Positions 1-33,270 of a stretch of 36,046 bases of DNA are shown piece after piece. The stretch covers positions 120,888-156,933 of the forward strand of contig JABBOH010000005.1 in the NCBI GenBank assembly GCA_019351895.1, given 5' to 3'. Numbering within the stretch: position 1 is the stretch's first letter; every line of letters begins with the position of its first letter. Source of the stretch: Pseudomonadota bacterium. GTDB lineage: Bacteria > Pseudomonadota > Alphaproteobacteria > Acetobacterales > Acetobacteraceae. A program made the position numbers and the translations under genes. The notes beneath the pieces were generated by a model. That model did not search any database, had not been told where the DNA came from, and saw only the letters and a program-made list of their open reading frames with translations.

Positions 1-1
1 C

Positions 2-658: not shown

Positions 659-686
659 TCCGAGCCACTTGACGACAACCCGCGTT

Positions 687-707: not shown

Positions 708-753
708 GACCACTTCAAGAGCCGCGTCGCACGGGCGCGGGTCGGAGGGATCG

Positions 754-3154: not shown

Positions 3155-3177
3155 CTCAACAAATCTGTAGGATTTCG

Positions 3178-4197: not shown

Positions 4198-4257
4198 GCA
4201 CCGGCTGACAGTACAGGATTCCGGAGCAACCGGAACCAATACAGGAGGAGAGAACGC

Positions 4258-5580: not shown

Positions 5581-5603
5581 CAGCGACGATAGGTTCACGC
5601 CAA

Positions 5604-5634
5604 GGCCGGACGTCCGTTCCCACAGGGTCCGGCC
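5604..5634 (+). promoter_or_regulatory. Intercistronic stem-loop after the binding-protein gene
   Basis: A perfect 8-bp inverted repeat, GGCCGGAC (5604-5611) and GTCCGGCC (5627-5634), encloses a 15-nt loop. It lies between the binding-protein stop (5580) and the permease ribosome site (AAAGGA, 5639-5644). There is no U-tract. The position parallels the malE-malF type of mRNA-stabilising element, which keeps binding protein in excess over permease; the function is inferred. Confidence 0.55.
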
Positions 5635-5648
5635 GAACAAAGGACGCC

Positions 5649-7462: not shown

Positions 7463-7518
7463 ACCTCACCACGCATGAACGCCCACGGACGGGTTCACGC
7501 TTGCAAAGGATGACATCC

Positions 7519-9546: not shown

Positions 9547-9564
9547 CACGGCTGGAGAAACGCG

Positions 9565-13480: not shown

Positions 13481-13529
13481 GATTGCATTACCTTGAAGCG
13501 ATGGCCAAGCGCTGGAACGTACGCATACA

Positions 13530-14780: not shown

Positions 14781-15751
14781 CGGAGCGTGCGGAGCCGACC
14801 GCGACGGTGATCATCGCGGCTTACAACTGCGAGACTTTCCTCGGTCGCGCGATCGCTTCGGTGACCGCGCAGACCCTGCCGCCGAAAGAAATTCTGATCG
14901 TCGACGATTGCTCGACGGATTCCACGCGGGAGGTGATCCGGGCTGCCGCGGAGACGGATCCGCGGGTTCGTATGATCGCGCTTCCGAGGAATGGGGGTCC
15001 TTCCGCTGCTCGGAACGCCGGGCTCGACGAAGCGGAGGGCGATTGGATCGCGGTTCTGGATGCCGACGACGCTTTCGCTCCTGAGCGGCTGGCCCAGCTC
15101 ATTCCCTTCGGCGTCGCGACGGGCGCCGACCTCGTGGCGGACGATGTGGCCTATTATGATGCGTCCGCGGGTCGCGTTACCGGGCGTGGGCTCGGGCCAG
15201 AAGCGCAGTTCTCAGATGTCGATATCACGTTGCGAGACTATTTTCGCCATAATCTGGCCACAGGGACTAGCTTTGACTGGGGCTTGTTGAAACCGATATT
15301 TCGGCGCAACGCGCTGTCCGGCCATGCCGTCCGGTATCGCGCAGGGCTTCGCCATGGCGAAGATTTTCAGTTGGTCGCTGAGCTTCTTTTGAACGGAGCT
15401 TCGTTTCGTGTGCTCAACCAACCTTTGTATCTCTACACTCAGCGGTTCGGGGCCATCAGCAATCGCTCGTCCGGGATGACGCGAACGACGATCGCGTATG
15501 GTGCTTTACGCGATGCCACACTCGCACTTTGCGCGAATGCGGCAATAGCGTCGGATCATGAGTTGGTGGAGTTGCTTCGCCGTCGCGCGGCGGGCCTTGG
15601 CCGGCTTGACGACGCGCATTTCATCTCGACGGCTACGCGGGAAATGGCGTTTGGCGCCATCGTCGCGCGAATTAGGAAAAATCCTTTTTTAGTGTCAACG
15701 ATGATGCGGCAGTTCAGCGCCGCGCTTGTTCGGAGGCTATCCCGCTCGTAG
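14777..15751 (+). CDS. Glycosyltransferase family 2 (GT-A)
   Basis: GT-A family 2 transferase, 324 residues, starting at GTG in a GTGA overlap with the preceding GT4, so the two are coupled. Seen: N-terminal ATVIIAAYNCETFLGRAIASV, IVDDCSTDST, the GGPSAARNAGL segment and the metal-binding LDADDAF with D95/D97/D98. A later ED motif (RHGEDFQL) is the likely catalytic base region. No membrane helix is seen. It has the look of ExoA/ExoW-like side-chain transferases; substrate not deducible. The next gene is convergent. Confidence 0.88.
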   Translation: MTERAEPTATVIIAAYNCETFLGRAIASVTAQTLPPKEILIVDDCSTDSTREVIRAAAETDPRVRMIALPRNGGPSAARNAGLDEAEGDWIAVLDADDAFAPERLAQLIPFGVATGADLVADDVAYYDASAGRVTGRGLGPEAQFSDVDITLRDYFRHNLATGTSFDWGLLKPIFRRNALSGHAVRYRAGLRHGEDFQLVAELLLNGASFRVLNQPLYLYTQRFGAISNRSSGMTRTTIAYGALRDATLALCANAAIASDHELVELLRRRAAGLGRLDDAHFISTATREMAFGAIVARIRKNPFLVSTMMRQFSAALVRRLSRS

Positions 15752-15778: not shown

Positions 15779-16624
15779 TCAATGCGCACGCATGAGCGTG
15801 TCGTTAGCAAATGCCCGTATGGATTTCAGACTCATGAGCACGATCGGTGGAGCGACCAGGCGCAAGCCAAGTTCCACCCGCTGTCTCACCGAATATCCTT
15901 TGTGGGCGAGGTAGGTCGTGGGCAACATGTTGCTCGTGGTGCTTTGAGCCCGCCCATTGGTGTAGAAATAGGCGGTCACGGATCGCCTTTTCCGGCCGTC
16001 CCGTATTGGCCGTGGATGCCCGTGCGCCGAGATCTGCGACTGCTCCAGGATGACGGTCCTGCCGAAGACCGGCGTAACGCTTGCGGCGCAGCGCGGCGGC
16101 TTTGTGTGCCATAGTTCCAGATTCCCGCCGTCAGTCGGCAGCCAGTTGTCATTGAGGTAGGTGATGACGACGAGCCGGTTGTCGAGAAAGGTCCTGGGAT
16201 GCCGTTCGAAATCCAGATGAATTTCAAACGCGCCACCTTCCTCAACCTCATGCATGCCCCCGCCATGCAGAGCTGGATCCGGAATGAGGTTATTGATCCC
16301 CGTGATTTCCGAGAGGAACCGTATGAAGGGCCCTGAATTGAGCGTGTTGAAATAATCCTGAACAAACGGCGGCAGCGGCGAATCGGGCGGGGTGGCACGT
16401 TTCCGCTGGAGCCCGGACTTGATGTCCCGCCACGTGGCGGCAGGCGCCGTGTCGAAATCGGCAGAGACCGCCAGCAGCCGTTCCGCGGGGAACAAGCCAT
16501 CGATCACAAGATGAGGGAAAGGCTCCGCAGAAGCGTATTCGGACCGGAGCCTGTCCCGTTGCGCTGAGCTCATCGCCTCGAATCCTGGCGGACTGCAATT
16601 CCAGTGGGATGGATCGCTGCGCAT
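15779..16624 (-). CDS. 2OG-Fe(II) oxygenase, prolyl-4-hydroxylase-like
   Basis: 281 residues of the 2-oxoglutarate/Fe(II) oxygenase superfamily. The iron ligands appear as H136-x-D138 in EIHLDFERHP and a distal histidine in HGHPRPI (H201/H203); the 2OG-binding arginine is in RRSVTAYFY (R214). The HGHP...RRS arrangement is common in small P4H-like enzymes found in polysaccharide and lipopolysaccharide loci. The ATG has TTAGGT about 5 nt upstream. It lies convergent to the GT2 gene and divergent from the EPS operon, hinting at a role in modifying the polysaccharide or an envelope component, but the substrate is unknown. Confidence 0.8.
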   Translation of the reverse strand: MRSDPSHWNCSPPGFEAMSSAQRDRLRSEYASAEPFPHLVIDGLFPAERLLAVSADFDTAPAATWRDIKSGLQRKRATPPDSPLPPFVQDYFNTLNSGPFIRFLSEITGINNLIPDPALHGGGMHEVEEGGAFEIHLDFERHPRTFLDNRLVVITYLNDNWLPTDGGNLELWHTKPPRCAASVTPVFGRTVILEQSQISAHGHPRPIRDGRKRRSVTAYFYTNGRAQSTTSNMLPTTYLAHKGYSVRQRVELGLRLVAPPIVLMSLKSIRAFANDTLMRAH

Positions 16625-17179: not shown

Positions 17180-18697
17180 ATGCATCTCGATAAAGGCAAA
17201 GACTTAGTTCTCGAGATCCCGGACGGCTCCGCCAACGCTGCGGTCGATCTCGGTGATATAGCTGTCAGCTCCGTCCGTAGTGCTCCGCGCGCCATCGACG
17301 GTAAGCCAATTGTCGCGTCCGTGACCTGGTTTGCCGAAGTTGCGGCAGTATTTGTCGCGACTTTTTCTGTCGCATCCGCGAATCATCCTGTACTCGTCAG
17401 TCACCAGCATGATTTTGCAGTTGCAGGCTTTGTGACGGTTCTCACTTTCTGCCTTCTCCACCGCCGCAGTGGCGTCGCAAGGTCGGCGTCAAAGGGCGGT
17501 TTTCGCCGGCAGATGAGGCGGGCGGCTTCTCTCTCGCCCGCGCTGCTCGGCGCTGCGATGGCTGGCGCTTGCGTTCTGGTGTTGTTGGGCTTCGCCTTGC
17601 CGAAGCTGATAGCGCCAGTTTCGCTCTGGTTGGCCACGAGCCTTGTCGCGGTAACCGCCGTCGGCGGGATTGCTGCCTATGTATTGGCGCATCCTTTCGT
17701 CGCCCATCGTATGGCTCGTAAGGTGGCAGTCATAGGTCACGACGGAAATGCGTCGCGGGTGGCCGACCTCTGCGCCGGCCGCGCGCGTGAGCCTGTCCAA
17801 TTTCTTGGGATTTTCAGCGATGAGCCGGCTCGACCCGGTGGGCCATCCGTCGCGGGTTCAGTCGACGAGCTGATCGATTTGAGCCGCGAAATGTCCATCG
17901 ACGACATCGTTATAGCGGTCCCACCCGACGCTGACGCGCTTGAGACCGTGGCGCAGCTGCGCTGGCGTTTGCGAGGTGTTGCTGTGGAGGTTTACATCTT
18001 GCCGCACCTCGCGCAGGGCGAGGATGTCGTGCTTCCGGTGGAGATGTTCGGGCCGCTTCCGCTGGTGGTTGTTCAGCGTCGTCCGCTTAGTCATGCGCAG
18101 GCCCTCTGCAAGCGCCTTTTGGATTTAGCTTTCGGCTTGATACTGCTTGTTCTTCTGCTCCCGGTTCTTGTGGCGGTGGCCGTGGCGGTCAAGCTCGATT
18201 CCCCTGGCCCGATCCTTTTTCGCCAGCCGCGCCTGGGGTTCAACGACCGGCCGTTCACGGTGCTGAAGTTCCGCTCGATGCATGCCAGCGCATCGGATCT
18301 GATGGCTAGCCGCCAAACCTCTCGGCGTGACCCGCGCGTGACGCGGGTAGGGCGGTGGCTGCGAAAACTGAGCCTCGACGAGCTTCCCCAGTTGTTCAAT
18401 GTGCTGTCCGGCGACATGTCCCTCGTGGGCCCAAGGCCTCACGCTCCGCATACGCGGGCGGGAGGACGGCTATTGAAAGATGCGATGGCTGAATATGTCA
18501 TCCGGCATCAGGTGAAACCCGGCATCACCGGCTGGGCGCAGGTGAACGGCGCCAGGGGTGAATTGGTCACCATGGATGACCTGCGGAGGAGGGTGACTTT
18601 CGATCTCGAGTATATCCAGAAGTGGTCCGTGTGGTTGGATATCCGGATCATCTCGATGACGGTCCTTCGGGAGGTCTTCAGCAAGCATGCATTCTGA
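17180..18697 (+). CDS. gumD: Polyprenyl-phosphate glucose-1-phosphate transferase, GumD/WcaJ-type
   Basis: Priming enzyme of EPS synthesis, transferring sugar-1-phosphate (most likely glucose) from UDP-sugar to undecaprenyl phosphate at the inner membrane; 505 residues. Four N-terminal membrane segments lie within about residues 45-175, then a Rossmann-like domain (KVAVIGHDGNASRVADL), then the catalytic domain from about 310: the re-entrant LLDLAFGLILLVLLLPVLV helix, KLDSPGPILFRQPRLG, VLKFRSMHA, SLDELPQLFNVLSGDMSLVGPRPH and VKPGITGWAQVNGARGE. The latter text closely follows Xanthomonas GumD. The ATG has ACAGG just upstream. It heads the operon and overlaps the GT26 gene by 11 nt. Confidence 0.92.
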   Translation: MHLDKGKDLVLEIPDGSANAAVDLGDIAVSSVRSAPRAIDGKPIVASVTWFAEVAAVFVATFSVASANHPVLVSHQHDFAVAGFVTVLTFCLLHRRSGVARSASKGGFRRQMRRAASLSPALLGAAMAGACVLVLLGFALPKLIAPVSLWLATSLVAVTAVGGIAAYVLAHPFVAHRMARKVAVIGHDGNASRVADLCAGRAREPVQFLGIFSDEPARPGGPSVAGSVDELIDLSREMSIDDIVIAVPPDADALETVAQLRWRLRGVAVEVYILPHLAQGEDVVLPVEMFGPLPLVVVQRRPLSHAQALCKRLLDLAFGLILLVLLLPVLVAVAVAVKLDSPGPILFRQPRLGFNDRPFTVLKFRSMHASASDLMASRQTSRRDPRVTRVGRWLRKLSLDELPQLFNVLSGDMSLVGPRPHAPHTRAGGRLLKDAMAEYVIRHQVKPGITGWAQVNGARGELVTMDDLRRRVTFDLEYIQKWSVWLDIRIISMTVLREVFSKHAF

Positions 18698-19553
18698 CGC
18701 TGACGTGGTGGTGGAGCGCGTCCGCTCGAGCCAGGGCACTCCGCCCGCTGATCGTGACGCGCTGATGGGTGCGGAAGCCTTCGAGGTGATGGGGCTGCGT
18801 CTGCAGAACATCCACCGCGCTGCTATTGCGGAGCGCGTTGTCGAGGCTGTCGAAGAGAAGAGCGGGCTCCTTGTGGTGAATGCGAACGCGCATTGCGTGA
18901 CGCTTTCGCAAAAGGAATCATGGATGCGGGGCTTTTTTGCGCAGGCTGACATCGCGTTCTGCGATGGCGCCGGGGTGCAACTTGCCACCAAAATTCTCAA
19001 GGGCTTCACGCCGCATCGGACCACGCCGCCGGAATGGATTGGGGCCGCTCTTGAGCGGCTCGGTCCGAAGGCTCGGGTCTTCTGGCTTGGCGGCGCCCCC
19101 GATGTTGCCTTGGCGGCTGCCGCAGCCTTTGAGGCTCGATACGATGTCGTCACCGTAGGCGTCCAGCACGGCTATTTCGATCCGACGCCGGGATCGGATG
19201 AGTCACAGGCAATTGTCGCTCGCATCAACGAGAGCCAGCCTACGGTTCTCCTCGTGAACATGGGCATGCCACGGCAGGAGAGGTGGCTCTGGGATCATTC
19301 GCGGGAACTGCGGCCACTGGTTGCAATCACCGCGGGTGCGCTGGTTGATCACGCCGCTGGCCGCGTCAGCCGACCGCCGCGCTGGGTTGCAAATCTTGGT
19401 ATCGAGTGGCTGGTACGTCTGCTCCGCGAGCCAAGGCGGCTCTGGCGCCGCTACCTGTTGGGCTTACCGGTTTTTGGCATCTACCTCGTCAGCTACGCCA
19501 TCAGGGCCGGTATCCCGCGACGCGGCCGGGCAGAATCAAAGACATCCGCATGA
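18687..19553 (+). CDS. gumM: WecG/TagA/CpsF family glycosyltransferase (GT26), GumM-like
   Basis: GT26 enzyme, 288 residues. In xanthan and acetan synthesis the GT26 member (GumM) adds the second, beta-1,4-linked glucose to Glc-PP-polyprenol; that role is inferred here from position directly after the GumD-type gene. Seen: LLVVNANAHCVTLSQ, ADIAFCDGAGVQLA with the conserved Asp, VFWLGGAPDVA, LLVNMGMPRQERW and AGALVDHAAGRVSRPPRWV, all family hallmarks. A C-terminal amphipathic basic region (EPRRLWRRYLLGLPVFGIYL) probably gives membrane attachment. It overlaps both neighbours (11 nt before; ATGA after). Confidence 0.9.
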   Translation: MHSDADVVVERVRSSQGTPPADRDALMGAEAFEVMGLRLQNIHRAAIAERVVEAVEEKSGLLVVNANAHCVTLSQKESWMRGFFAQADIAFCDGAGVQLATKILKGFTPHRTTPPEWIGAALERLGPKARVFWLGGAPDVALAAAAAFEARYDVVTVGVQHGYFDPTPGSDESQAIVARINESQPTVLLVNMGMPRQERWLWDHSRELRPLVAITAGALVDHAAGRVSRPPRWVANLGIEWLVRLLREPRRLWRRYLLGLPVFGIYLVSYAIRAGIPRRGRAESKTSA

Positions 19554-21736
19554 ATTCAATGAATAGTCACCTTCCGGTCATTGGGGTAATGCAGCCCAAT
19601 GGCGCATATGCGGCGAAGCGCCTATTGCGCGTCTGGCGCCGGCACCTTGGTCTTTTTCTGGGCGTCTTCGTAGTTCTCGCAGCGATCGGCGTAGCGGTCG
19701 TCTTTAGCCTGAAGCCCACCTACACGGCCACGGCGACCGTCGTGCTGACGACCCAGAATGCGGATCCCCTGGCGGCTATGGGGCAGCAGCCCATGGACGT
19801 AGTGGGCGACGACCGAGCAGCTACCGAGGCGGCGCGGCTGCAGTCGCGCGATGTGGCGGCGGCAGTACTTCACGAATTTCCGCCTCCGCCTGCGGCACCG
19901 AGGTTCCAGATCCGCAACTGGCTCTGCACCAACCACCTGACGTTCCTCTGCAAAAAGCCGCCACCGTCGTCGCCAGGATCGCAGCAGGAGGGCGAGATAA
20001 ACGCGTTCCTCTCGAAGTTGACGGTGTCGCCGGAGCTACATTCGCGCGTCCTCGACGTGAGCGTGACCGCGAATGACGGCCAGCGGGCCGCCACGCTGGC
20101 AAACGCGGTGGTGACGAACTACCAGACGCTGGCCCTGCAGCAGCAGACCGCGGATGTGAACCGCGTCGCGTCCTGGCTGGATGCGCGGACGGAGGAGCTG
20201 CGGCAGCGCTGGCTCGACGCTGTCAACAAGGCCAATGCCTTCGACGTAGCGCAGGGCTTGACGAACACCGGCAATGGGCAGGCGAGCGATCCGCTCGTCA
20301 ACAGCCAGATCGCCGAGACGGCGGTCAACCTCAGCGCGGCGCAGGCCAAGCTCGCGGCCGCGCAAGCGCGCGCGGATGCGCTGCAGGCAGCCGCTCATGG
20401 TGGCAGGCCCGGAAGCCTCCTGGAGGCGGCGCAGCAGCCCATCGTTGTCGCATCGGCCAATGCTCTGAGCCAGCTCGAGAGCGAGCGGCGGCAACAGGAA
20501 GCTGAGTTCGGCCGGAATTATCCGGGCGTTCGCGCCCTGAACCAGCAGATTGCATCGACACGTGCGAGCTTGAGATCGGCGACCAGCGAGGCGCTTGGAA
20601 ACATCCGTGAAAATCTCGTGGCGGCGCGTGCGGAGGTCAAGCAGCTCACCAGCTACCTCAACTCGCTCCGGGACCAGGCGGGCCGCCAGAGCGCCCCGCA
20701 GGCCCAGTTCCGAAGCCTCAGTCAGGAGGCGCAGAGCGCCCAGACCGTCTATCAGACCTTCCTTGACCACTCCAAGGAGGTGGTCGACCGCGCGGCGTTG
20801 CTGCAGCCTCCGGTCGCGTTTGTGTCCCACGCCGCGGTACCGGGAAGCCCGACCTTTCCGAACCACGGCAAGCTGCTGGCCGGCGTCGCGATCGTCTCCA
20901 TCGTTCTGGCGCTCGCCGCCGTATTGCTGGCCGATTACCTATCGGTCGGCTTCGGGGACGTGGATGATCTTCGTGGAGCCGTGCAGTTGCCGCTCCTCAC
21001 CGCTATTCCGTTCGTCTCAGCGAGTGGGCGGCGGCTGATCGCCCGCCATGTTCTGGACGATCCCTTCTCACGGGCCAGCGAAGCCGTACGCGGATTGGCG
21101 GCGCAACTTTCTCTGATGGTGCGGGACGGTGATCGCCCTAGATCGGTTCTCGTCACGTCGGCGAGTGCGGAGGAGGGCAAGACGACATTGGTCGTGTGGC
21201 TCGCGCTGACGGTGCGCATGGGCGGGCAGCGTGTGATCGTCGTGGACGGTGATCATCGGCGCGGCTCCCTCAACCGACACATGTCGGGGTCGACAAAGCT
21301 CGGCCTCACGGATTTGCTTGCCGGTCACGCGACGCTGGCCGAAGTCATTCAGACCGACCCTGATACCGACGTGGACTTCATCGGTGCAGGCAGGCCGATG
21401 ACCAACTCCTTTGGCACGCGCGACATCATGAATTTGCGCGCCATCATGACCGCGTTGAAGACCTCGTATGGTCTCGTCATTGTCGACAGCCCACCGCTGC
21501 TGGCCATGACGGATGGTCTTGTTCACGCGAGCATTGTCGACCAGACCATTTTCATCTGCCGGTGGCAGTCGACTTCGCGCCGGGCTGTCGTCGGATGCAT
21601 CGAACGTCTTCGGGCTTATGGAGCGCAGATTCCCGGTATCGTGGTCTCGATGGTCGATCAGAAATCCACCTTGGCCCTGGGCGACGACTACAGCCGCCGA
21701 GAAATGAAGCTCATCAACAAGCTCTACGGCTCTTGA
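19550..21736 (+). CDS. Polysaccharide co-polymerase with BY-kinase domain (Wzz/Wzc, ExoP-type)
   Basis: Chain-length control and export protein, 728 residues. A Wzz domain starts with a membrane helix (HLGLFLGVFVVLAAIGVAVVF), has a long coiled-coil-rich periplasmic region (SQLESERRQQEAEFGRNYPG) and ends in a second helix near residues 441-463. A cytoplasmic bacterial tyrosine-kinase domain follows: Walker A SASAEEGKTT with K544, Walker A' VIVVDGDHRRGSLNRHM, Walker B LVIVDSPPLLAM. The C-terminal tail has only two tyrosines (DDYSRREMKLINKLYGS), fewer than the cluster in E. coli Wzc. Xanthan GumC lacks the kinase domain, so this locus uses the fused form. ATG 19550 overlaps the previous stop (ATGA). 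Confidence 0.92.
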   Translation: MNSMNSHLPVIGVMQPNGAYAAKRLLRVWRRHLGLFLGVFVVLAAIGVAVVFSLKPTYTATATVVLTTQNADPLAAMGQQPMDVVGDDRAATEAARLQSRDVAAAVLHEFPPPPAAPRFQIRNWLCTNHLTFLCKKPPPSSPGSQQEGEINAFLSKLTVSPELHSRVLDVSVTANDGQRAATLANAVVTNYQTLALQQQTADVNRVASWLDARTEELRQRWLDAVNKANAFDVAQGLTNTGNGQASDPLVNSQIAETAVNLSAAQAKLAAAQARADALQAAAHGGRPGSLLEAAQQPIVVASANALSQLESERRQQEAEFGRNYPGVRALNQQIASTRASLRSATSEALGNIRENLVAARAEVKQLTSYLNSLRDQAGRQSAPQAQFRSLSQEAQSAQTVYQTFLDHSKEVVDRAALLQPPVAFVSHAAVPGSPTFPNHGKLLAGVAIVSIVLALAAVLLADYLSVGFGDVDDLRGAVQLPLLTAIPFVSASGRRLIARHVLDDPFSRASEAVRGLAAQLSLMVRDGDRPRSVLVTSASAEEGKTTLVVWLALTVRMGGQRVIVVDGDHRRGSLNRHMSGSTKLGLTDLLAGHATLAEVIQTDPDTDVDFIGAGRPMTNSFGTRDIMNLRAIMTALKTSYGLVIVDSPPLLAMTDGLVHASIVDQTIFICRWQSTSRRAVVGCIERLRAYGAQIPGIVVSMVDQKSTLALGDDYSRREMKLINKLYGS

Positions 21737-21746
21737 GGGGCGGGAC

Positions 21747-22904
21747 TTGAAGGTCGTCCACGTCGTCCGCCAGTTCAGCCCTTCGGTAGGCGGACTGGAG
21801 GACACCGTCCTCAGTTTGACGCGCGCCCAGCGGGATCGTCTCAACATTGACGCAAGTGTCTTGACCCTCGACCGTCTGTTTACCGGCTCTGAGGTTCTGC
21901 CCGCCCAGGATATTGTTGAAGGTGTGCCCGTCCGGCGTATGCGGTGGCTGGGATCCAGCAGGTATCCTGTGGCTCCTTCTGTTCTGCGCCATCTGAAAGG
22001 CGCGGATGTTGTTCATGTTCATGCCATCGATTTCTTTTTCGACTACCTCGCGCTGACGCGCCCCTTGCACAGGCGGCGGATGATCGCGACGACCCATGGC
22101 GGCTTCTTCCACACGGGGGCGTTCAAAAGCGCCAAGAAGCTGTGGTTCCAGACGCTCACTCGCGCGTCCATTTCCGCTTACGACCGGATCGTCGCCTGTA
22201 GCCAGAGCGATGCCGAGATGTTCAAGGCAAACGCTGGAAAGCGATTGGTTCTCATCGAAAACGGCATCAACCAAGCGAAGTTCCACAACGCTGCATCGCA
22301 CGTGCCGCGGAAGACTATCCTGAGTTTCGGACGGTTCGCTCGCCACAAACAAACTGACAGGTTGCTGGCGGCGCTCAAGGAACTTGTTGCCCGCGACCCC
22401 GAATGGCGGCTCATCATCGCTGGCCGGGAAGCCGATCAGACGGTTTCGGAACTTCGCGATCTGGCGCGTCGACTGGGAGTTGTCGACGCTGTTCGGTTTG
22501 TTCTGAACCCGACAGACGCCGACCTGCGCGGCCTGATGGGCGAAGCGAGTTTCTTCGCGAGTATGTCTGCGTATGAGGGTTTCGGGCTGGCAGCCGTCGA
22601 GGCGATGTCAGCCGGGCTCATTCCCATTCTGAGCGGAATTCCAGCCTTTCGCCGCCTTGTCACGAGGGCCGGGATCGGCTTGATCGTCGATGCGGATGAC
22701 GCTCCCAGTGTTGCGGCGGCGATCGTCACGCTCCCGGTAGCTGATGCCGATCTTCTGGCGGCATGGCGGCATCGGGCACTGGCGGTGGCCGCGAACTACG
22801 ATTGGCAAGAGGTTGCACGACAGTATTCGCTCGTCTACGAGAACGCCGCCAACATCGGGCCCGCTATACGGCAGGCAGTTGGTTCGGAGAGGCTGATTGA
22901 CTGA
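21747..22904 (+). CDS. gumH: GumH-type alpha-1,3-mannosyltransferase (GT4)
   Basis: GDP-mannose:cellobiosyl-diphosphopolyprenol alpha-1,3-mannosyltransferase homologue, 385 residues. The start is TTG 21747: it gives MKVVHVVRQFSPSVGGLED, matching the remembered N-terminus of Xanthomonas GumH, and a GAGGGG ribosome site lies 6 nt upstream. Further GumH-like text: GSSRYPVAPSVL, HAIDFFFDYLALTRPLH, THGGFFHTG, WFQTLTR. The GT4 E-x7-E motif is E277/E285 in EGFGLAAVEAMSAGLIPILS. It should add the first side-chain mannose onto the Glc-Glc lipid intermediate in the cytoplasm, the acceptor later used by the GumK-type enzyme at 27183. Confidence 0.93.
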   Translation: MKVVHVVRQFSPSVGGLEDTVLSLTRAQRDRLNIDASVLTLDRLFTGSEVLPAQDIVEGVPVRRMRWLGSSRYPVAPSVLRHLKGADVVHVHAIDFFFDYLALTRPLHRRRMIATTHGGFFHTGAFKSAKKLWFQTLTRASISAYDRIVACSQSDAEMFKANAGKRLVLIENGINQAKFHNAASHVPRKTILSFGRFARHKQTDRLLAALKELVARDPEWRLIIAGREADQTVSELRDLARRLGVVDAVRFVLNPTDADLRGLMGEASFFASMSAYEGFGLAAVEAMSAGLIPILSGIPAFRRLVTRAGIGLIVDADDAPSVAAAIVTLPVADADLLAAWRHRALAVAANYDWQEVARQYSLVYENAANIGPAIRQAVGSERLID

Positions 22905-22909
22905 AAAAG

Positions 22910-22924
22910 GGTTCTCTAAGAACC
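22910..22924 (-). terminator. Small hairpin with T-tract on the minus strand
   Basis: GGTTCT (22910-22915) and AGAACC (22919-22924) form a 6-bp stem with a 3-nt loop just after the gumH stop. Read on the minus strand the hairpin is followed by CTTTTT, like an intrinsic terminator; on the plus strand there is no T-tract. No minus-strand gene is seen upstream of it, so its use is doubtful. Confidence 0.3.
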
Positions 22925-22987
22925 TCCTCCATCAACGCTTTTAGCACGTTGCTGCCGCTTCTGACCTCAGGAGGCGAACTGCCTCTC

Positions 22988-23163
22988 TGCATCGTCTTGT
23001 GGTTGCAGGTGCAAGCTGCTTCTTTTCGATGATCCTGTTGATGCGGTCTGTGGTGTTTGCGGTCGCTCTTGCCCGCGCCCTGTTCTCGAATCCGAGGACG
23101 TCACCCGCGAGGCAGGCCATGTCGCGGGCGTTCGGTTTCGTGATGATCTACGCGCCCGGGTAG
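22988..23163 (+). pseudogene. Remnant of a LysE/RhtB-type translocator (C-terminal end)
   Basis: In one frame this stretch reads a hydrophobic segment (VVAGASCFFSMILLMRSVVFAVALARAL) followed by a basic loop (FSNPRTSPARQAMSRAFG) and FVMIYAPG before TAG at 23161-23163. That is the pattern of the C-terminal end of LysE/RhtB amino-acid exporters (membrane helix, short Arg-rich loop, Asn/Ser-Arg-x-x-G, last helix). The N-terminal two thirds and a start codon are missing, so it would be a decayed fragment. The match is by pattern only. Confidence 0.35.
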
Positions 23164-23478
23164 CTCGTGATGTTCGGGACGATGCCCCTGATCATCAACT
23201 GCGGCTTACTCCTTTTGCTCAGTGGTTGCTTCAACCGGGAGTGTGGCGCCTAGCATTCCCCCCGCTGCTAATGAGTATGGCCCTGGTAGTCGGACGGCTT
23301 TTGCCCATGGCCACGGCGAGAGCGTGTTGCTTGGCGGTTCCGTTTGGGCTCTGCTTCGCTCTCCTGTCATTGCGCTCGTCCGTTGCTTCGCGAGATTGTT
23401 CTTGCGACGGCGCGGCGGATCGGTATTCTCCCGCATCCCGCGTGTCTGAAAGCGATACCCTTTTCTGATGGCCTTCCT

Positions 23479-24819
23479 GTGCTGATTGGTAGAACCACCT
23501 GGGGTAACGAGTTTGGGCGCGCTCTCGCTCTGTGCGGCGTTGCGGCGGCGGTAAGCGTTCTCTCGGCCAGCAAAGCCCAAGCCCAGCTGGTGCAGGAGTA
23601 TTTTCCCGGACTGATACCCGGGTACCAAGCCAATCTCAGTGGCTCGGTTATCAATCGCATTTACAGCCTGGATGCTCCGACCGGAGTCGAGGTCGGCGAT
23701 TTTGTCATCCGGCCTCAAGCGACGGAATCGGCTGGCTACAACTCGAGCGTCCTGGGTGTGCCGGGGACAGCCAGCCCGTCTCTCAGCACCAGCGCGGGCG
23801 TCAAGGTGAATTCGGATTGGAGTCGGGACGCGATCGGCGCCTCAGCCGACGTGAGCGAAAACCAGTTCTTTAACACTCCCATCGCGAACTACACCTCCTG
23901 GGGCGCCGCATTGGGCGGCACGCTAACGCTCGGCAACGACGCCGCCAGCGCCGGCTACTCTCATCGAAACCAATATCTGTCCGCCGAGGATCTGGGCGTC
24001 ATCGGTGTCGTCAGCCCGGTGCCGTATTCGGTGGATGATGTGCGGGTCTCGTACTACAAGCTTTTTAGCCGCTTCAGCATCACACCCTCGTTTGAATATG
24101 AGAACTTCACCTTCGGCCAAGCTCAGGGTGCCGAGACAATCTCCTACAGCGGGCTCAACCATCGGACCGAGATCGGCGCTTTGACAGGGGAATACGCGAT
24201 CTCGCCCGGTAACGCCGTGGTCGCCATCCTGCGCGGGACCGCCGCGCAGTTCAACCCGGTCGCCGGCGCGACTTCGAACAACTACAGCGATGCCGCGGGC
24301 TTCCTAGGTTTCGACTACGAGAGCGGGAGCCTCTTGCAATACCGGGCGTTGATCGGGGCAGAGAGCCGCACCTTCACCTCGAGCAACCTGTCAACCGTTA
24401 CCACGCCTGTGTTCGAACTTGATGCCATGTGGGAGCCGACCGAGGTCGATACGGTCACTGGCGTCGTAAGCCGAGAGCTCAATGACCCGGCATCGCCGTT
24501 TGCAAGCAACCAGACAATCAGTCTTGCCCGGTTGCAACTCGACCATCAGCTGCGTGACAACCTTTTTTTACGAGGCTCCCTTCAATACGGCAAAAGCGTT
24601 TCCCCCGCGAACACAGCCGGTTTTTCGACCTTGAACGAGACGCAGGTGAGTTTCGGCGCGAGGCTGCTTTGGAAAATATCCCGTCATCTCGATGCCAGTG
24701 TGAGCTACGGCTTTAGCAACGGGCAAAGCTCTGGTGGCAGTAGCGTCCCTTTGCCCAACAATGGCGGCAGCAACTTTACGAGCAATAGCGTCCTGTTGGG
24801 GGTCAGTATTTTTGACTAA
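23479..24819 (+). CDS. Outer-membrane beta-barrel protein, BBP2-like
   Basis: Predicted outer-membrane beta-barrel, about 446 residues from GTG 23479. A signal peptide (RALALCGVAAAVSVLSASKAQA|Q) is followed by alternating amphipathic strands rich in Tyr, Ser, Gly and Asn (AGYNSSVLGV, FSITPSFEYENFTFG, LDASVSYGFSNG) and ends VLLGVSIFD, a barrel-type C-terminus close to an aromatic residue. The pattern fits the putative beta-barrel porin 2 (BBP2) family common in alphaproteobacterial EPS loci. The start is uncertain: no ATG is available in frame, and a TTG at 23344 would bury the signal peptide. It sits directly upstream of the export lipoprotein, which suggests a joint role in secretion of the polymer. 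Confidence 0.8.
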   Translation: MLIGRTTWGNEFGRALALCGVAAAVSVLSASKAQAQLVQEYFPGLIPGYQANLSGSVINRIYSLDAPTGVEVGDFVIRPQATESAGYNSSVLGVPGTASPSLSTSAGVKVNSDWSRDAIGASADVSENQFFNTPIANYTSWGAALGGTLTLGNDAASAGYSHRNQYLSAEDLGVIGVVSPVPYSVDDVRVSYYKLFSRFSITPSFEYENFTFGQAQGAETISYSGLNHRTEIGALTGEYAISPGNAVVAILRGTAAQFNPVAGATSNNYSDAAGFLGFDYESGSLLQYRALIGAESRTFTSSNLSTVTTPVFELDAMWEPTEVDTVTGVVSRELNDPASPFASNQTISLARLQLDHQLRDNLFLRGSLQYGKSVSPANTAGFSTLNETQVSFGARLLWKISRHLDASVSYGFSNGQSSGGSSVPLPNNGGSNFTSNSVLLGVSIFD

Positions 24820-24937
24820 AGTGACCGACCTCTGCTGATTGACGCATGAGAATTGTGGGGGACCTGCGGCTTGCTTGGGTATCCATCGATGTCGATGCAA
24901 GCTTGTTTGCTTAGACTGCCTTTTGTCCGGAGTTCAG

Positions 24938-25555
24938 ATGACGCGCACAAAGATGAATAAGACGGTGAGAAGCGCCGGGCACGGCATTCGGTTCTGGGGG
25001 CCGGCTCTCCTTCTCGGTATAGGTACAACCCTGTCAGGTTGCTCGCCTGGCGGCGACCTGCCGATGTTGGCGCAGCCGGCGAGCACGACCTATCAGCTCG
25101 GAGCGGGCGACCAAGTTCGGATCATCACCTTCGATGTCCCGCAGCTGACGAATACGTTCACGGTGGGAGACGACGGGACGATTTCCTTCCCCCTGATCGG
25201 CGTGGTGAAGGCGGCGGGCCTCACGTCGAAAGGGCTTGCATCGGAAATCTCGTCGGAACTGATTCACGACAGCCTGATGCCCCACCCCAGCGTTTCGGCG
25301 GAAATCGTTCAATATCGACCGATCTCCGTGCTCGGCGAGGTAAATCACCCAGGCCAGTACCCGTATCAGCCCGGACTGACCATGCTTGGAGCAGTGGCGC
25401 TCGCCGGCGGCTTCACCTATCGCGCGGTCACCTCCCATGCGACCGATGTTCGGACTGAAGGTCCGCACGGCAGCGATGTTGTAAAAGGTCGAATCAGCCC
25501 CGAGTCTCGTCTTCAGCCGGGCGACGTCGTTACCATTCTTGAGCGCTACTTCTGA
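24938..25555 (+). CDS. gumB: Polysaccharide export lipoprotein (OPX, Wza/GumB-type), short form
   Basis: Periplasmic/outer-membrane export protein, 205 residues. The signal peptide ends in lipobox LSGC (TTLSGC|SPGGD), so it is a lipoprotein. The Poly_export domain follows (YQLGAGDQVRIITFDVPQLTNTF...ISFPLIGVVKAAGLT), then one SLBB domain (ISVLGEVNHPGQYPYQPG...AVALAGGFTYRA) and the protein stops right after PGDVVTILERYF. It thus lacks the C-terminal amphipathic helix with which E. coli Wza crosses the outer membrane, as in GumB-size OPX proteins. ATG 24938 has GGAG 5 nt upstream. Its 3' end overlaps the convergent polymerase gene by 26 nt. Confidence 0.9.
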   Translation: MTRTKMNKTVRSAGHGIRFWGPALLLGIGTTLSGCSPGGDLPMLAQPASTTYQLGAGDQVRIITFDVPQLTNTFTVGDDGTISFPLIGVVKAAGLTSKGLASEISSELIHDSLMPHPSVSAEIVQYRPISVLGEVNHPGQYPYQPGLTMLGAVALAGGFTYRAVTSHATDVRTEGPHGSDVVKGRISPESRLQPGDVVTILERYF

Positions 25556-26840
25556 AGTTTGAGGCGAGCGCCGGGCGGGCCAGCCTGCGGACCGTCTCGG
25601 GCTGCAGGCCGGCCAGCGGGAGTTCGAAACTTCGAGCCGCGTTGGTGGTGCCATAGAGAAACCATAGAAGCGCGGCGGTCTTGATCGTGAACATATTGGC
25701 GCCGATGCAGAGCGATGTCGCCATGTACACGGCAATCATGGCCTTCATGGAAACCGCCTCAGGCGTGTTAGGCTTGTGAAAGGCAAAGACCATCAGGAGA
25801 AACGTCGCCAGCGGAAGGCTCAGATTATTGATCACGTAGGCATAGCCTGTATCTGCTGTATAAACCTGCGACGGAGCGAGACCGAGCCACTGTGCCGGGG
25901 CCCAATAGTTCAGCAAGCGGCCGGAAAAGAGCAGCCGACCCGAAAAGTCATCTTCCAAGATGGATGGCCGCACGCCCGGCAATTCATGGATGGAGCCGGC
26001 CATCGCCAGCCCGACAACGGCCGCGATCGGCAAGCAGAACACAACGAAGCGTGAGCGGTAGAAGGGCGTGCAGCGGAACAGGATCATCATCAGCCAGCAG
26101 CCGGAGGCGAAGCGGGAGTCGCCCAAAACGAAACAGGCGGCTGCGAGCATGTAGAGCAGCGCCTTCATTCTCGGCCGGTCGATCCGGGTGCTGATGCACC
26201 AAGCGAAGATCAGAACCGAGAAATTGCCCATCGATACGGGCTCTAGGAAGACCGAGGAAACCCGGTGGGGTCCGAGTAGCGACGGCAGGAAGGTGCGGCT
26301 TAGTTCCCCAGCACGCTGGCCGCTGATGAAAAAGCCGGTGTCGCTGTAGTTTACGGTCGACGCGGAGATGACGCCCTTGTCGACGTAGTAGGTCCATTCG
26401 TCAAAGAAGCTGACGAATATACTGGGGAGAAGTAACTCGAAGAGACCCATCACGATAACGATGATCATTGCCCACCAGACAAGCCGGTTTCCCTCCTGCA
26501 AGCTGGACATCATCCCGAGTTCGTAGAAGATGTACATGACCCCGATGTCATGAATGATCTTCAGATCGAGACCTGGATTGATCAGTTTCAAGCCAATCAG
26601 AAAGACGCACATGACGCCGGTGATCTCGACGGCTTGTCGGCTTATCCGGTGGCGGATCACGAACAACCCCAGCGCGAGGATGCTCAACTCCACCGCGATC
26701 ACCACTGCATTCGACATGTGGAGACCCGCGCGGGTCGTGACCAGGCACAGTACCATGTTGAAGATCAACGCCACGAGTACGAGACGTGGCCCAGCGGGGC
26801 TGAGGACGGCGGACCCGGTGATGGATGTGCTTTGCATCAT
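25530..26840 (-). CDS. Wzy-like EPS polymerase / O-antigen ligase-like membrane protein
   Basis: Polytopic inner-membrane protein, 436 residues with about 10-12 hydrophobic segments (for example LVLVALIFNMVLCLVTTRAG, WWAMIIVIVMGLFELLLP, MKALLYMLAAACFVLG, FVVFCLPIAAVVGLAMAG). A periplasmic loop with SGRLLFSGRLLNYW is typical of Wzy-type polymerases, and the location within a Gum-type locus suggests the GumE role: joining repeat units on the periplasmic side. It lies on the opposite strand to the rest of the core operon, tail-to-tail with the export gene. The start at 26840 (ATGATG) has no strong ribosome site; earlier in-frame codons add about 44 non-membrane residues. Confidence 0.8.
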   Translation of the reverse strand: MMQSTSITGSAVLSPAGPRLVLVALIFNMVLCLVTTRAGLHMSNAVVIAVELSILALGLFVIRHRISRQAVEITGVMCVFLIGLKLINPGLDLKIIHDIGVMYIFYELGMMSSLQEGNRLVWWAMIIVIVMGLFELLLPSIFVSFFDEWTYYVDKGVISASTVNYSDTGFFISGQRAGELSRTFLPSLLGPHRVSSVFLEPVSMGNFSVLIFAWCISTRIDRPRMKALLYMLAAACFVLGDSRFASGCWLMMILFRCTPFYRSRFVVFCLPIAAVVGLAMAGSIHELPGVRPSILEDDFSGRLLFSGRLLNYWAPAQWLGLAPSQVYTADTGYAYVINNLSLPLATFLLMVFAFHKPNTPEAVSMKAMIAVYMATSLCIGANMFTIKTAALLWFLYGTTNAARSFELPLAGLQPETVRRLARPALASNFRSSAQEW

Positions 26841-27182
26841 GATGACAATGCGGGCCCTGAGCGCTGTAATCGAACGACACGGACTATATAGCATAGGTCG
26901 CGAGATAAGTTGAACTCGTTGTGCGTGGCCTGGATGGCGCTCGCACAAAGGGGCATGACGAGCAGACATCAAGTTGGCTTTTCTTGTATGACCAGTGTGT
27001 CTCGGCTAAGAGATCATCTTGAAGAAATAGCTCATTGTCGGTTCTCACTCGATTGCGCGGTGGCCAACGGCCAACGGCATTTTTGGAGGCGGCAGTTGGG
27101 CGCATCGTTACCTGGGGAGGGCACGACGCGTCATATTTCACCCCGACCGATCGACGGAAGGGACTAACCGCGGGATATCTTC
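26841..27182 (+). other. Divergent promoter region between polymerase and gumK
   Basis: No gene is supported here; short frames on the plus strand have no recognisable features. The region is moderately AT-rich and must contain the promoters of the leftward polymerase gene and of the rightward gumK-GH5 pair. No clear operator palindrome was noticed. Confidence 0.45.
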
Positions 27183-28286
27183 GTGAAGGCTCTGTTCGTT
27201 TCGGTTCATGATTTCCGCAGCCTTCGCCGGGCAAGCGTTCACTTCATCGCGGCCGAGATGGCGCGACGGTGCCAGACGCGGTTTTTTTCCGTCGGCCTTT
27301 CACGCATGTCGCAGCACCGTGGCGATACCCGCACGAGCCTCGCCGCCCAGGCCAACCGAGTTGAGACTCATCAGGGGGTGGAATGCTACCTGTGGAAGAC
27401 CCCGTGGCATCCGTTCAACATGCGGAACCCGAGGCTCAAGCCTGTGGAGACAGCGCTGTTCCGCGCTTACCGCACGATGGTGCCGAAGGTTCCCAAAGAA
27501 TGGTTGCAGGAGTCGGATGTCGTTTTCGTCGAATCCGGTATGGCGGTGATTTTCATAGCGGACATCAAGAGACTGAACCCCAGGGCGCGCGTGATCTATC
27601 TCGCCTCGGACGAGTTGGATGTGATCGATTGCGCCTCGACGATCAAGCGTGACTTCGTCGCTCACTTCGACAAGATCGATACGGTCAGATTGCCGTCACG
27701 TTACATGGTGCCGAGCCTTCCACACAGCCGCACGTCGATCCTGGTCCCGCATGGGGTGGATCGATCAATGGCAGCGAAGGCGTATCCCAATCCGTACGGC
27801 GGCCAAACTTCCTGCATCGCCGTTGGATCCATGCTGTTCGATGCAAGCTTCTTCAGAATCGCCGCGGATGCGTTCCCGCACGTAAATTTCCACATCATCG
27901 GTGCAGGTAAAGGTGCAACCGAGTTGCATGGGGGGAACATTATCGTGCACCCGGAAATGGCTTTCGTCGAAACGCTGGCCTATCTTCAGCATGCGGCCTT
28001 CGGTGTCGCGGCTTATCGCGACGAGAGAAGCCCGCGCTATCTCATCGATACCTCCCTCAAGCTCAAACAGTTCGGCTTGTTCTCGATACCTGCTGTCTGC
28101 CCATATTTCGCGTTGGGCGATGCGCCCGGCCGGTTTGGCTATACACCGGGAGACGCCGCTTCCATCAAGGCCGCCATCGCCGCGGCCTTGGACAACCAGT
28201 TGCCGATTGTCGATACATCGCATAGTTGGGAGGCAGTGGTTGATCGCCTTCTCAGGCCTTCAGACTACCCCGATACGGCAATTTGA
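27183..28286 (+). CDS. gumK: GumK-type beta-glucuronosyltransferase (GT70)
   Basis: Homologue of xanthan GumK, which transfers GlcA from UDP-GlcA to the mannose of Man-Glc-Glc-PP-polyprenol; 367 residues, GT-B fold, membrane-associated. GTG 27183 starts MKALFVSVHDFRSLRRASVHFI, matching the GumK N-terminus; further matches are the FFSVGLSRMS, VECYLWKT-HPFN and ESDVVFVESGMAV stretches. The GumK catalytic Asp corresponds to D143 in YLASDELDVID. Donor-site features are also kept: VGSMLFD, HPEMAFVET and SLKLKQFG (Lys/Gln pair). GGGAT lies 8 nt upstream of the start. The GH5 gene follows after 24 nt. The presence of GumK predicts an acidic EPS. Confidence 0.93.
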   Translation: MKALFVSVHDFRSLRRASVHFIAAEMARRCQTRFFSVGLSRMSQHRGDTRTSLAAQANRVETHQGVECYLWKTPWHPFNMRNPRLKPVETALFRAYRTMVPKVPKEWLQESDVVFVESGMAVIFIADIKRLNPRARVIYLASDELDVIDCASTIKRDFVAHFDKIDTVRLPSRYMVPSLPHSRTSILVPHGVDRSMAAKAYPNPYGGQTSCIAVGSMLFDASFFRIAADAFPHVNFHIIGAGKGATELHGGNIIVHPEMAFVETLAYLQHAAFGVAAYRDERSPRYLIDTSLKLKQFGLFSIPAVCPYFALGDAPGRFGYTPGDAASIKAAIAAALDNQLPIVDTSHSWEAVVDRLLRPSDYPDTAI

Positions 28287-28310: not shown

Positions 28311-29657
28311 ATGATACGCATTAGACGGCGCTGCGGGGATGTCGCCCGTAGGGTCCTTGGGTGTGTGATCGCTTTGGCATGTTTCGGTCAAGGTCCAGCC
28401 GCGATGGCTGCTGCCGCGACACGTTCACCCATCCTTTGGGGGGTGGCCGAAAGCGGGCTCGAGCTTGGCCATGGCATGAAGGCCGGTACAAACTATCTGA
28501 TCCCAGATCCCAGCTACTACCTCAGCCACGGCGTGCGGTTGATAAGGCTACCCTTCAAGATGAGCCGAATGCAGCCTCAGGCTCAAGGTCCGCTTGACCC
28601 AGCGTTCATCGCCTCGATCAAGAAGATCGTTCATGAGGATGAGCGCCATGGCGCGCTCACCGTCATCGATCCCCACGGCTACGGCTTCTACGACATAGAT
28701 GGCAAACCTTCTGACATCCTCCAGGATCCCCTGGCTGCGGCCGATTATCTCGACCTCATGCGCCGGATAGGTACTGCCTTCGCACATGATGACGTGGCGA
28801 TCGGCTTGATGAACGAGCCCCATACAGGCTCCGACGTTGCCTATTCGAATATCTGGAACCAGGCGATCGCTGCAATCCGCGCCGCGGGATTTCGCGGCAC
28901 GATCGTCGTCCCGCATGCGCACTGGAGCAATGCTGCCGACATCAGCCCAAAGAGCCCCTTCACGGGACATATCGTCGATCCCCTTCATAATTGGGTTCTG
29001 GAGGTTCATCTTTATCTGGATCCAAACGGCACTGGCACTTATCGACAGCCGATCGCAGATGCCGATGTCGGGCGCGACAGGTTGTCGGGCGCCATTGCGT
29101 GGTCTCGGCAGAGCGGGGTTAAGCTTTTTCTCGGCGAAACAGGTGCGCCACCCGACAGCATGGGGATGAGCGCTTTGCATGTGGTCCTGAACGAAGTTGC
29201 GGCGGCGCCGGACGTGTTCTGGGGGATCGCATTATGGGGCGCCGGCGCCTGGTGGAAGCCAAACTATCCGATGCGCCTCGATCCCATCGACGGAGTGGCT
29301 CGGCCGCAGTTCGTCGCACTCGAAGATACATTTGCGCCAGAGATGCTATATTTGGCCAAACCGCCCGGAGGGCCTGATGTCCGGGTCACGGTGTATCTGG
29401 ACGGCCAACCGGTTGATCCCGATCTCGCTATAACTGCCGATGTGACGGGTCAACCTCAGTCGGTTCCTATAGAAGCGATGCTGGCTCCCGGCTCCCACCA
29501 CGTTCATGTCAGTCCTCTGGACGCGCCCGGTAACCAGAAAGCCTATCTTCTTGCTTCGACGTGGCACGGTGTTCCCGATAGTCAAGATGCCTTCGGTGTC
29601 ATCGACCGTGGCGGTTACACATTTACCATTCAGGTTCCGCACGGCAGCGCTCGCTGA
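28311..29657 (+). CDS. Secreted GH5 beta-glucanase with C-terminal beta domain
   Basis: Exported glycoside hydrolase of family 5, 448 residues. A signal peptide with a very basic n-region (MIRIRRRCGDVARR) precedes LGCVIALACFGQGPAAMA. The catalytic barrel shows LIRLPFKMSRMQP, DPHGYG, the acid/base E169 in LMNEPH, HLYLDPNGTG and the nucleophile E276 in FLGETGAP. After about residue 350 a beta-rich domain follows (VRVTVYLDGQPVDP...GGYTFTIQVPHGSAR), perhaps carbohydrate-binding. AGGAAGGGG lies just before the ATG. It is probably co-transcribed with gumK. Likely an endo-beta-1,4-glucanase acting on the cellulosic EPS backbone, for trimming or release; substrate is inferred from context. Confidence 0.9.
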   Translation: MIRIRRRCGDVARRVLGCVIALACFGQGPAAMAAAATRSPILWGVAESGLELGHGMKAGTNYLIPDPSYYLSHGVRLIRLPFKMSRMQPQAQGPLDPAFIASIKKIVHEDERHGALTVIDPHGYGFYDIDGKPSDILQDPLAAADYLDLMRRIGTAFAHDDVAIGLMNEPHTGSDVAYSNIWNQAIAAIRAAGFRGTIVVPHAHWSNAADISPKSPFTGHIVDPLHNWVLEVHLYLDPNGTGTYRQPIADADVGRDRLSGAIAWSRQSGVKLFLGETGAPPDSMGMSALHVVLNEVAAAPDVFWGIALWGAGAWWKPNYPMRLDPIDGVARPQFVALEDTFAPEMLYLAKPPGGPDVRVTVYLDGQPVDPDLAITADVTGQPQSVPIEAMLAPGSHHVHVSPLDAPGNQKAYLLASTWHGVPDSQDAFGVIDRGGYTFTIQVPHGSAR

Positions 29658-29676: not shown

Positions 29677-29700
29677 ACGGCTCACGCGCCTCGGAGCCGT
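29677..29700. terminator. Hairpin at convergent gene ends (weak)
   Basis: ACGGCTC (29677-29683) and GAGCCGT (29694-29700) form a perfect 7-bp stem with a 10-nt loop, placed between the GH5 stop (29657) and overlapping the last codons of the convergent GT32 gene. There is no clear T-tract on either strand, so it may only block read-through weakly. Confidence 0.35.
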
Positions 29701-30518
29701 CGTTTGAGCAGGCGTGCGGACTGGTAGGCCAAGTCCGCCACGCGCAGGTGCGGCGGTAGTCTCACAACAGAACCCTCATAGGTCGTGTAGTGGTTCTTAA
29801 AGAGGGTCCTGTGCGCGTCGCCGGGGACGATGCTGTAGTCCAGCGCGAGCGCCGCCTCGTTCGCAACGACGGTACAGGGATATTGCGAGATGAGCGGGGC
29901 AATCGTCAGCGTATAGATGATTGGCCCCGTCAGCCGGATCACGCCCACTTTCCCAGTGCCATGGCGCCACGGCTGATAGCGCTCGATCCCGTCGAACACG
30001 GCGACCAACACGGCGTGAAGGAACGGGTGTCCGGGAGAGGCGATCACGTGCCATTGCTGGAACTCGCCGCCTGGGATGTGGGCGACCTCCGGCTTCAGAC
30101 CATAGCCTTCATAGCGTTCCCCTGGGCCGTTGCTCCATTGTGACAGGATGAAAGACTCGTCGCCCCGCAGCACCTCATCGATGGGGCGCAGGAAGCGGCT
30201 TTTGATGTCGAGGTAGACGCCGCCAAGCTTGTAAATGACGAGATAGCGGAAAAGATCGGCACGGGCAGCGCCATAGCGTGGATTGATACGCTGATAGAGC
30301 GCGTGTATGGCGGGATCGTAATGCGCGATCAGAAAGGCGTCGATCGCAGCGTCGTCGTAGAAGCGATAATCCCAGCCTGAGTTGTTCGCTTTGAGTTCGT
30401 CCACGTTGCGCTGTAGAGCCCCGGGCAGTTCGCGACTGCCATAAGTTTGGTGAATGATCTTCGGAACACGTGCGACAGTTTGGGGCGCATCCAGCGGGAG
30501 AGGAGGCTTGCGGATCAT
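29682..30518 (-). CDS. GT32-type glycosyltransferase (OCH1/capsular-type)
   Basis: GT-A transferase with the 'sugar-binding region containing DXD' domain, 278 residues. Seen: VPKIIHQTYGSRELP at the N-terminus, WDYRFYDD, and ARADLFRYLVIYKLGGVYLDIKSRF, the GT32 core. The DXD motif reads D104-I-K106, so its second acidic residue is lysine; I cannot tell whether this is normal for its subgroup. No signal or membrane helix is seen, so it is cytoplasmic. The ATG has GAAGGA about 13 nt upstream, a loose ribosome site. It may add a further sugar to the EPS repeat; donor unknown. Confidence 0.82.
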   Translation of the reverse strand: MIRKPPLPLDAPQTVARVPKIIHQTYGSRELPGALQRNVDELKANNSGWDYRFYDDAAIDAFLIAHYDPAIHALYQRINPRYGAARADLFRYLVIYKLGGVYLDIKSRFLRPIDEVLRGDESFILSQWSNGPGERYEGYGLKPEVAHIPGGEFQQWHVIASPGHPFLHAVLVAVFDGIERYQPWRHGTGKVGVIRLTGPIIYTLTIAPLISQYPCTVVANEAALALDYSIVPGDAHRTLFKNHYTTYEGSVVRLPPHLRVADLAYQSARLLKRRLRGA

Positions 30519-33130: not shown

Positions 33131-33270
33131 GCCGCAGTCATTGTTCTTGTCAAAATCGGGGGCGACGACACCGTGCGTCGTGTGTGGTGCTTTAACAGAA
33201 GGCATTGATACTCGGCTAACACGAGGGCCGGAAATGTTCAAATTTTGCAAGGGCACGGACGATCGACAGA

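Follow-up and report, generated by a model that had tools for sequence, protein, structure and literature searches.

The acetan cluster of Komagataeibacter xylinus E25 is listed in PMC6528568 as polD, polC, eg, gumE, gumF, gumK, aceR, aceQ, aceP, aceM and aceF, followed by aceA, aceB, aceD, aceC, aceE, aceG, aceH, aceI, polA and polB. The gene order that we read in the K. xylinus-type loci L036 and L135 agrees with this published list from polC to polB, and aceR, aceQ and aceP are therefore named here by position. In Acetobacter, acetan loci are described as fragmented, with aceE missing in most locus-bearing species (excerpts of PMC7961339). Here we compare with these systems a stretch of 36,046 nucleotides (hereafter, the window), which is the end of contig C9 (JABBOH010000005.1) in a genome of 4.7 Mb and 141 contigs (GCA_019351895.1). 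This genome belongs to Acidisoma as the collections define the genus, together with Acidisoma sp. L85 (L048/G053). The acetan gene set is nearly complete within the window, and other contigs of the genome supply most of what it lacks. Judging from the sequence comparisons, the locus is very probably an acetan-type biosynthesis set, nearest to the acetan cluster of K. xylinus, in a species of Acidisoma; that is, an already-known polymer system (acetan, a relative of xanthan) in a new host genus, and not a new polymer.

Acetan genes in the window

When 16 proteins of the K. xylinus acetan locus were searched against the window (tblastn, E <= 1e-3), 12 of them matched (eg, gumE, gumK, aceR, aceQ, aceP, aceA, aceB, aceD, aceC, aceG and aceH) and four, aceE, aceI, gumF and ugd (aceM), did not; AceF, searched genome-wide only, had no match on contig C9. 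All seven acetan transferases (AceA, AceB, AceC, GumK, AceQ, AceP and AceR) are present with 52-62% identity to K. xylinus, and the acetan-type genes of the window are uninterrupted open reading frames (ORFs). The biosynthetic set spans positions 13530 to 35695, broader than the region 17180-28286 reported by a first-pass annotation of the same DNA.

That annotation had placed GumD-, GumM-, GumH- and GumK-type genes at 17180-28286, and all four were found there with Pfam matches and intact frames. The AceA/GumD-type protein (17180-18697, plus strand; PF02397, 3.6e-67) is 52% identical to K. xylinus AceA over residues 161-529; it scored above the cut-off of TIGR03025 and below that of TIGR03023 (398.1 bits, cut-off 410.75). 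The other three are an AceB/GumM glucosyltransferase of the WecG/TagA/CpsF family (18687-19553, plus; PF03808, 1.6e-50; 62% to K. xylinus AceB), an AceC/GumH mannosyltransferase of glycosyltransferase family GT4, which uses GDP-mannose (21747-22904, plus; PF00534, 1.7e-25, and PF13439; 54% to K. xylinus AceC), and a GumK/AceK glucuronosyltransferase of family GT70 (27183-28286, plus; PF22059 GumK_N, 5.7e-62). Residues 4-366 of the last protein align to residues 18-380 of the solved Xanthomonas campestris GumK (PDB 2hy7) with 45% identity (E = 3.3e-100). The similarity of GumK, noted earlier along its N-terminal half, thus extends over the full length. Asp143 of GumK is kept (the aligned position holds Ala in chain 3cuy); we take the Asp at this position to be the catalytic residue. 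With its GumK_N domain and key Asp, the 27183 gene belongs to the GT70 GumK family, and GumK_N had no match in 14 control genomes. Chance is excluded as the source of the four core matches by their E-values. The assignment of the 21747 and 27183 genes to the GumH and GumK families was borne out by the Xanthomonas loci, the acetan loci and the PDB, and the comparisons support the earlier prediction of an acidic polymer from an alphaproteobacterium with a glucuronic acid-mannose-glucose-glucose-diphosphate-lipid (GlcA-Man-Glc-Glc-PP-lipid) core of the xanthan/acetan type.

Side-chain transferases

A set of 26 window proteins was searched, at a threshold of 80 bits, in named GumK loci, of which the best 80 among 118 confirmed ones were taken. 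The 80 loci comprise 25 of Acetobacteraceae type (our own grouping, including Acidisoma L85), 26 of Xanthomonas and 29 others from outside Xanthomonas; the counts among the 25 are lower bounds, many loci ending at +-10 kb or at contig ends. The AceQ-type GT4 protein (13530-14780, plus; PF00534/PF13692), predicted to add alpha-Glc onto GlcA, is 59.7% identical to the product of the gene in the K. xylinus aceQ position and had counterparts in 24 of the 25 Acetobacteraceae-type loci. The AceP-type GT2 protein (14777-15751, plus; PF00535, 1.3e-38), predicted to add beta-1,6-Glc, is 52% identical to K. xylinus AceP and was matched in 18 of the 25; with K. xylinus AceP as the query, it was the best match in its own genome at 336.7 bits, the runner-up scoring 46.4 bits.

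The AceR-type GT2 protein (34457-35695, minus; PF00535, 1.4e-23), a predicted rhamnosyltransferase, is 54% identical to the product of the gene in the K. xylinus aceR position (430.8 bits) and 57-58% identical to its counterpart in Acidisoma L85 (471.7 bits). All nine Komagataeibacter loci carry an AceR-type gene (51-54%), always between gumK and the GT4 gene (aceQ). Among the other 15 Acetobacteraceae-type loci, L85 aside, only Acetobacter sicerae (L043, 38%) exceeded the threshold, and the one further match among the 80 loci was in a metagenome-assembled genome of Caulobacterales (L058, 38%). In the whole genomes G042, G022, G037 and G101, the best match to the window AceR did not exceed 73.7 bits. 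A paralogue on contig C79 of the window genome scored 161.6 bits and shares only 36-38% identity with both the window AceR and the K. xylinus (L036) protein.

GT4 enzymes transfer sugars with retention, and GT2 enzymes with inversion, of the anomeric configuration. The acetan anomers given in PMC7961339, namely alpha-Glc (AceQ), beta-Glc (AceP) and alpha-L-rhamnose (Rha; AceR), fit this rule. The first-pass annotation had also reported one extra GT4, two GT2 and a GT32 (PF04488) gene, all of which are present, and had proposed a possibly undescribed exopolysaccharide (EPS) with the xanthan core and side-chain ends unlike any known. This proposal was not supported, because the GT4 and both GT2 genes correspond to AceQ, AceP and AceR (60%, 52% and 54%), the enzymes behind the side chain already known from acetan. 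An undescribed polymer is improbable: specificity is not certain from sequence, and the locus holds extra GT32 and 2-oxoglutarate (2OG) oxygenase genes, but each acetan transferase has its counterpart at 52-62% identity.

Polymerisation, export and flippase

GumE, AceD, AceG and AceH, which serve polymerisation and export of the Wzx/Wzy type, are all present in the window. The Wzz-domain polysaccharide copolymerase AceD/GumC, with an AAA domain (19550-21736, plus; PF02706, PF13614), is 48% identical to K. xylinus AceD, and its start at 19550, read directly, overlaps the preceding stop. The beta-barrel outer-membrane protein AceG (23344-24819, plus; PF10082 BBP2_2, 4e-34; 42% to K. xylinus AceG) probably has its true start downstream of 23344. 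The Wza-type export protein AceH/GumB (24938-25555, plus; PF02563, PF10531) shares 57% identity with K. xylinus AceH. The GumE/Wzy polymerase (25530-26837, minus) is 55% identical to K. xylinus GumE and 29% to Xanthomonas GumE, without any Pfam or NCBIfam match. In the survey, GumE was matched in 18 and GumD in 14 of the 25 Acetobacteraceae-type loci.

The flippase was reported as missing from the window by the first-pass annotation. This holds, as neither K. xylinus AceE nor the ORF in the gumJ position of Xanthomonas has a match there; elsewhere in the genome, an AceE-type flippase (C79:1122-2585; 59% to K. xylinus AceE over residues 2-489 of 493) and a GumJ-type flippase (C11:43058-44509; 61% to an Acidomonas protein) were found, both without internal stops. 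A decayed or incomplete locus from which no polymer is made, for want of a flippase, is therefore very improbable; the window supplies its only favourable point, against which stand these two flippase genes, the intact acetan genes of the window, and the Acetobacter loci, known to be fragmented and mostly without aceE (excerpts of PMC7961339). The idea that contig C79 adjoins the window at the contig end found no support: no 10-150-base suffix of C9 occurs within the outer 300 bases of either C79 end.

Note that contig C79 (L136), 13 kb in length, carries, besides the AceE-type flippase and the AceR paralogue, a 2OG oxygenase gene, a second GumD gene (56% to that of the window) and PssD/PssE-like genes scoring 72.9 and 73.8 bits, below the cut-offs. 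It is probably a second EPS locus.

Precursor supply and points against acetan

Genes for sugar precursors were found on other contigs. A UDP-Glc dehydrogenase-type gene on C58 scored above the cut-off of the subfamily model TIGR03026 and below that of the TuaD model (515 bits, cut-off 700), and GDP-Man pyrophosphorylase-type genes on C56 and C93 are 63% and 62% identical to K. xylinus. On C45, rmlB, rmlA and rmlC are intact, each above its NCBIfam equivalog cut-off.

Several observations weigh against an acetan-type set. The rmlD gene next to these on C45 (L134 13752-14691) is split over two overlapping ORFs in different frames, the first covering positions 2-107 and the second positions 91-285 of the RmlD profile. 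The frame change may stem from a sequencing error or from a genuine disruption of the gene; barring such an error or another copy of rmlD, the supply of dTDP-Rha is doubtful. The gene order is rearranged, with AceQ and AceP upstream of AceA, AceR about 6 kb past GumK and AceE on another contig, and the identities of AceG and Eg to K. xylinus are low (42% and 32%). The AceR tree gave no resolution, so that AceR orthology rests on identity, together with the position of the K. xylinus counterpart. Acidisoma L85 has no good AceP (best 46.1 bits), and the GT32 protein of the window could add a further sugar. The acetylase GumF had no match in the window genome (K. xylinus GumF query, E <= 1e-3), and AceI had none in the window, no genome-wide search for AceI having been made. 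GumF and AceI are both missing in most locus-bearing Acetobacter species according to PMC7961339, so that these acyltransferases are no strict requirement of an acetan locus. The chemistry of any Acidisoma polymer was not found in the literature examined, and the open-licence literature yielded no paper linking acetan with Acidisoma and, judging by title, none on acetan among those on Acidisoma exopolysaccharide.

The product may instead be a variant acetan, a reading that overlaps with an acetan-type set: the same core with an altered side chain, for example one without Rha, with galactose (Gal) replacing one Glc, a substitution known from other acetic acid bacteria, or with an extra sugar added by the GT32 enzyme. 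AceQ- and AceP-type genes also occur in the loci of Gluconacetobacter diazotrophicus and Acetobacter estunensis, which make polymers with Gal but without Rha (PMC7961339), and the two-frame rmlD, the GT32 gene without a match in the 80 loci and the failure to find GumF in the genome all point the same way. Against a variant stand the intact AceR-type frame, the intact rmlA, rmlB and rmlC, and the sister position of the GumK lineage to Komagataeibacter. We regard a variant as possible, with clearly the smaller share of the probability, and lean slightly towards the exact acetan heptasaccharide as the product of the Acidisoma locus.

In the GumK tree, the window and Acidisoma L85 group together (99/94), and the pair joins Komagataeibacter as its sister (99/94); note that the window branch is long and was flagged. 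In Acidisoma L85, GumK lies on contig C14 (424,502 bases), AceE adjoins GumH, and some 23 kb separate AceR from GumK, both being on C14. With AceE and AceR but without a good AceP relative, L85 may have a repeat unit that differs by one sugar.

GH5 endoglucanase and neighbouring genes

Next to GumK lies an Eg-type endoglucanase of glycoside hydrolase family GH5 (28311-29657, plus; PF00150, 3.4e-24; 32% to K. xylinus eg), with an N-terminus that looks signal-like by eye. It matches the cellulase PDB 5hnn (2.2e-40), is 61% identical to the product of an Acidisoma L85 gene, and corresponds to 'eg' of the acetan cluster. A GH5 gene stands beside GumK in 23 of the 25 Acetobacteraceae-type loci, 23 of the 29 others and none of the 26 Xanthomonas loci. 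Three close relatives of Xanthomonas in the GumK tree are among the six of the 29 without GH5: Pseudoxanthomonas (L056), [Pseudomonas] boreopolis (L062) and Luteimonas, the last as a short contig (L081). This distribution suggests a general role for a backbone-cutting enzyme. As GumK is paired with GH5 in most loci, those of Xanthomonas and its close relatives excepted, such a role can be tested. We found no paper on a xanthan-like gum cluster with an endoglucanase.

Other genes are interspersed with the set or flank it. The GT32-type transferase (29682-30518, minus; PF04488, 2.9e-9), at most a candidate member of the pathway, had nothing above the threshold among the 80 loci, and the 2OG-Fe(II) oxygenase (15779-16624, minus; PF13640, 9.7e-15) was matched in four of the 25 Acetobacteraceae-type and three of the 29 other loci. 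A protein of family GH79 (beta-glucuronidase/heparanase; 11996-13555, minus; PDB 5bwi, E = 3.7e-96) had no such match in the other 79 loci (+-10 kb); a relative with 53% identity lies near the Acidisoma L85 acetan genes (L048 2728-4200). Both of the Acidisoma genomes examined have GH5 and GH79 genes within or next to the acetan set. That the GT32 enzyme adds a sugar and the GH5/GH79 pair trims or recycles the polymer, yielding a modified acetan in Acidisoma, is an unlikely proposal; if true, it would describe an acetan system equipped with its own remodelling enzymes.

A divergent ATP-grasp/flavoprotein gene pair occupies 31778-34467 and also stands head to head near acetan genes in Acidisoma L85 and in genome G022. 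Its candidacy as part of the pathway was weakened, as neither protein exceeded 80 bits in the 80 loci (+-10 kb). Relatives of the flavoprotein above 260 bits occur in 15 of 100 family genomes, 12 of which lack a GumK_N match, and there is a second copy in the window genome. Positions 1-11499 look like a locus for beta-galactoside uptake and use, encoding components of a sugar ATP-binding cassette transporter, a regulator of the LacI family and a pair of adjacent GH42 beta-galactosidases.

Proposed pathway

The homology, open frames, gene complement and tree placement described above suggest a pathway that is a prediction as regards the specificity for each sugar, the order in which the sugars are added, enzyme activity, the flippase that serves and the GH5 role. 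AceA would transfer Glc-1-phosphate onto the lipid carrier, and AceB would then add Glc, AceC Man and GumK GlcA. The side chain would be extended by AceQ with alpha-Glc, by AceP with beta-Glc and by AceR with L-Rha. The lipid-linked heptasaccharide would be turned over by a flippase encoded elsewhere, either of the AceE type (C79) or of the GumJ type (C11), after which GumE would polymerise the units and AceD, AceG and AceH would carry out export. The GH5 enzyme would probably cleave the cellulose-like backbone, either to release the polymer or to clear it.

Comparison with known systems

The window shares homologues of GumD, GumE, GumH, GumK and GumM with the xanthan gum cluster at 29-47% identity. 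Against the ORFs of Xanthomonas sp. LMG 31884 (L076), the values were 34% for GumD, 29% for GumE (26780-25650), 47% for GumH and 45% for GumK; GumM matched at 37% over residues 108-276 only. A partial gumC ORF and the ORFs in the gumF, gumG, gumI, gumJ and gumL positions, labels that we presume from the operon order, had no match in the window (tblastn, E <= 1e-3). The absence of GumI, GumJ, GumF/G and GumL from the window, as first annotated, was thus upheld, and membership in the xanthan cluster type was rejected, the side-chain ORFs GumI, GumL and GumF/G of Xanthomonas being without a window match. Conversely, GH5, AceQ, AceP and AceR were matched in none of the 26 Xanthomonas loci (+-10 kb of GumK).

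The gum-like clusters of Gluconacetobacter, Acidomonas, Acetobacter and, from papers, Kozakia share GH5, GumE, GumK and AceQ with the window, and many of them also AceP, AceA, AceB, AceD and AceC. In contrast, the Gluconacetobacter, Acidomonas and Acetobacter stretches have no AceR-type gene of comparable identity, and Kozakia is described as lacking aceR in the excerpt of PMC5050591. The AceR-bearing acetan-type cluster now extends outside Komagataeibacter, to Acidisoma.

Compared with the K. xylinus acetan cluster, the Acidisoma locus has its AceE, UDP-Glc dehydrogenase, GDP-Man pyrophosphorylase and rml genes located elsewhere in the genome, with rmlD split over two frames and GumF not detected (own genome, E <= 1e-3), and is interspersed with GT32, GH79, 2OG oxygenase, ATP-grasp and flavoprotein genes. 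A locus that appears incomplete in one window is, in this case, largely completed elsewhere in the same genome. Common to both are the seven transferases, the Wzy polymerase, the copolymerase, the beta-barrel and Wza-type parts, and the GH5 gene.

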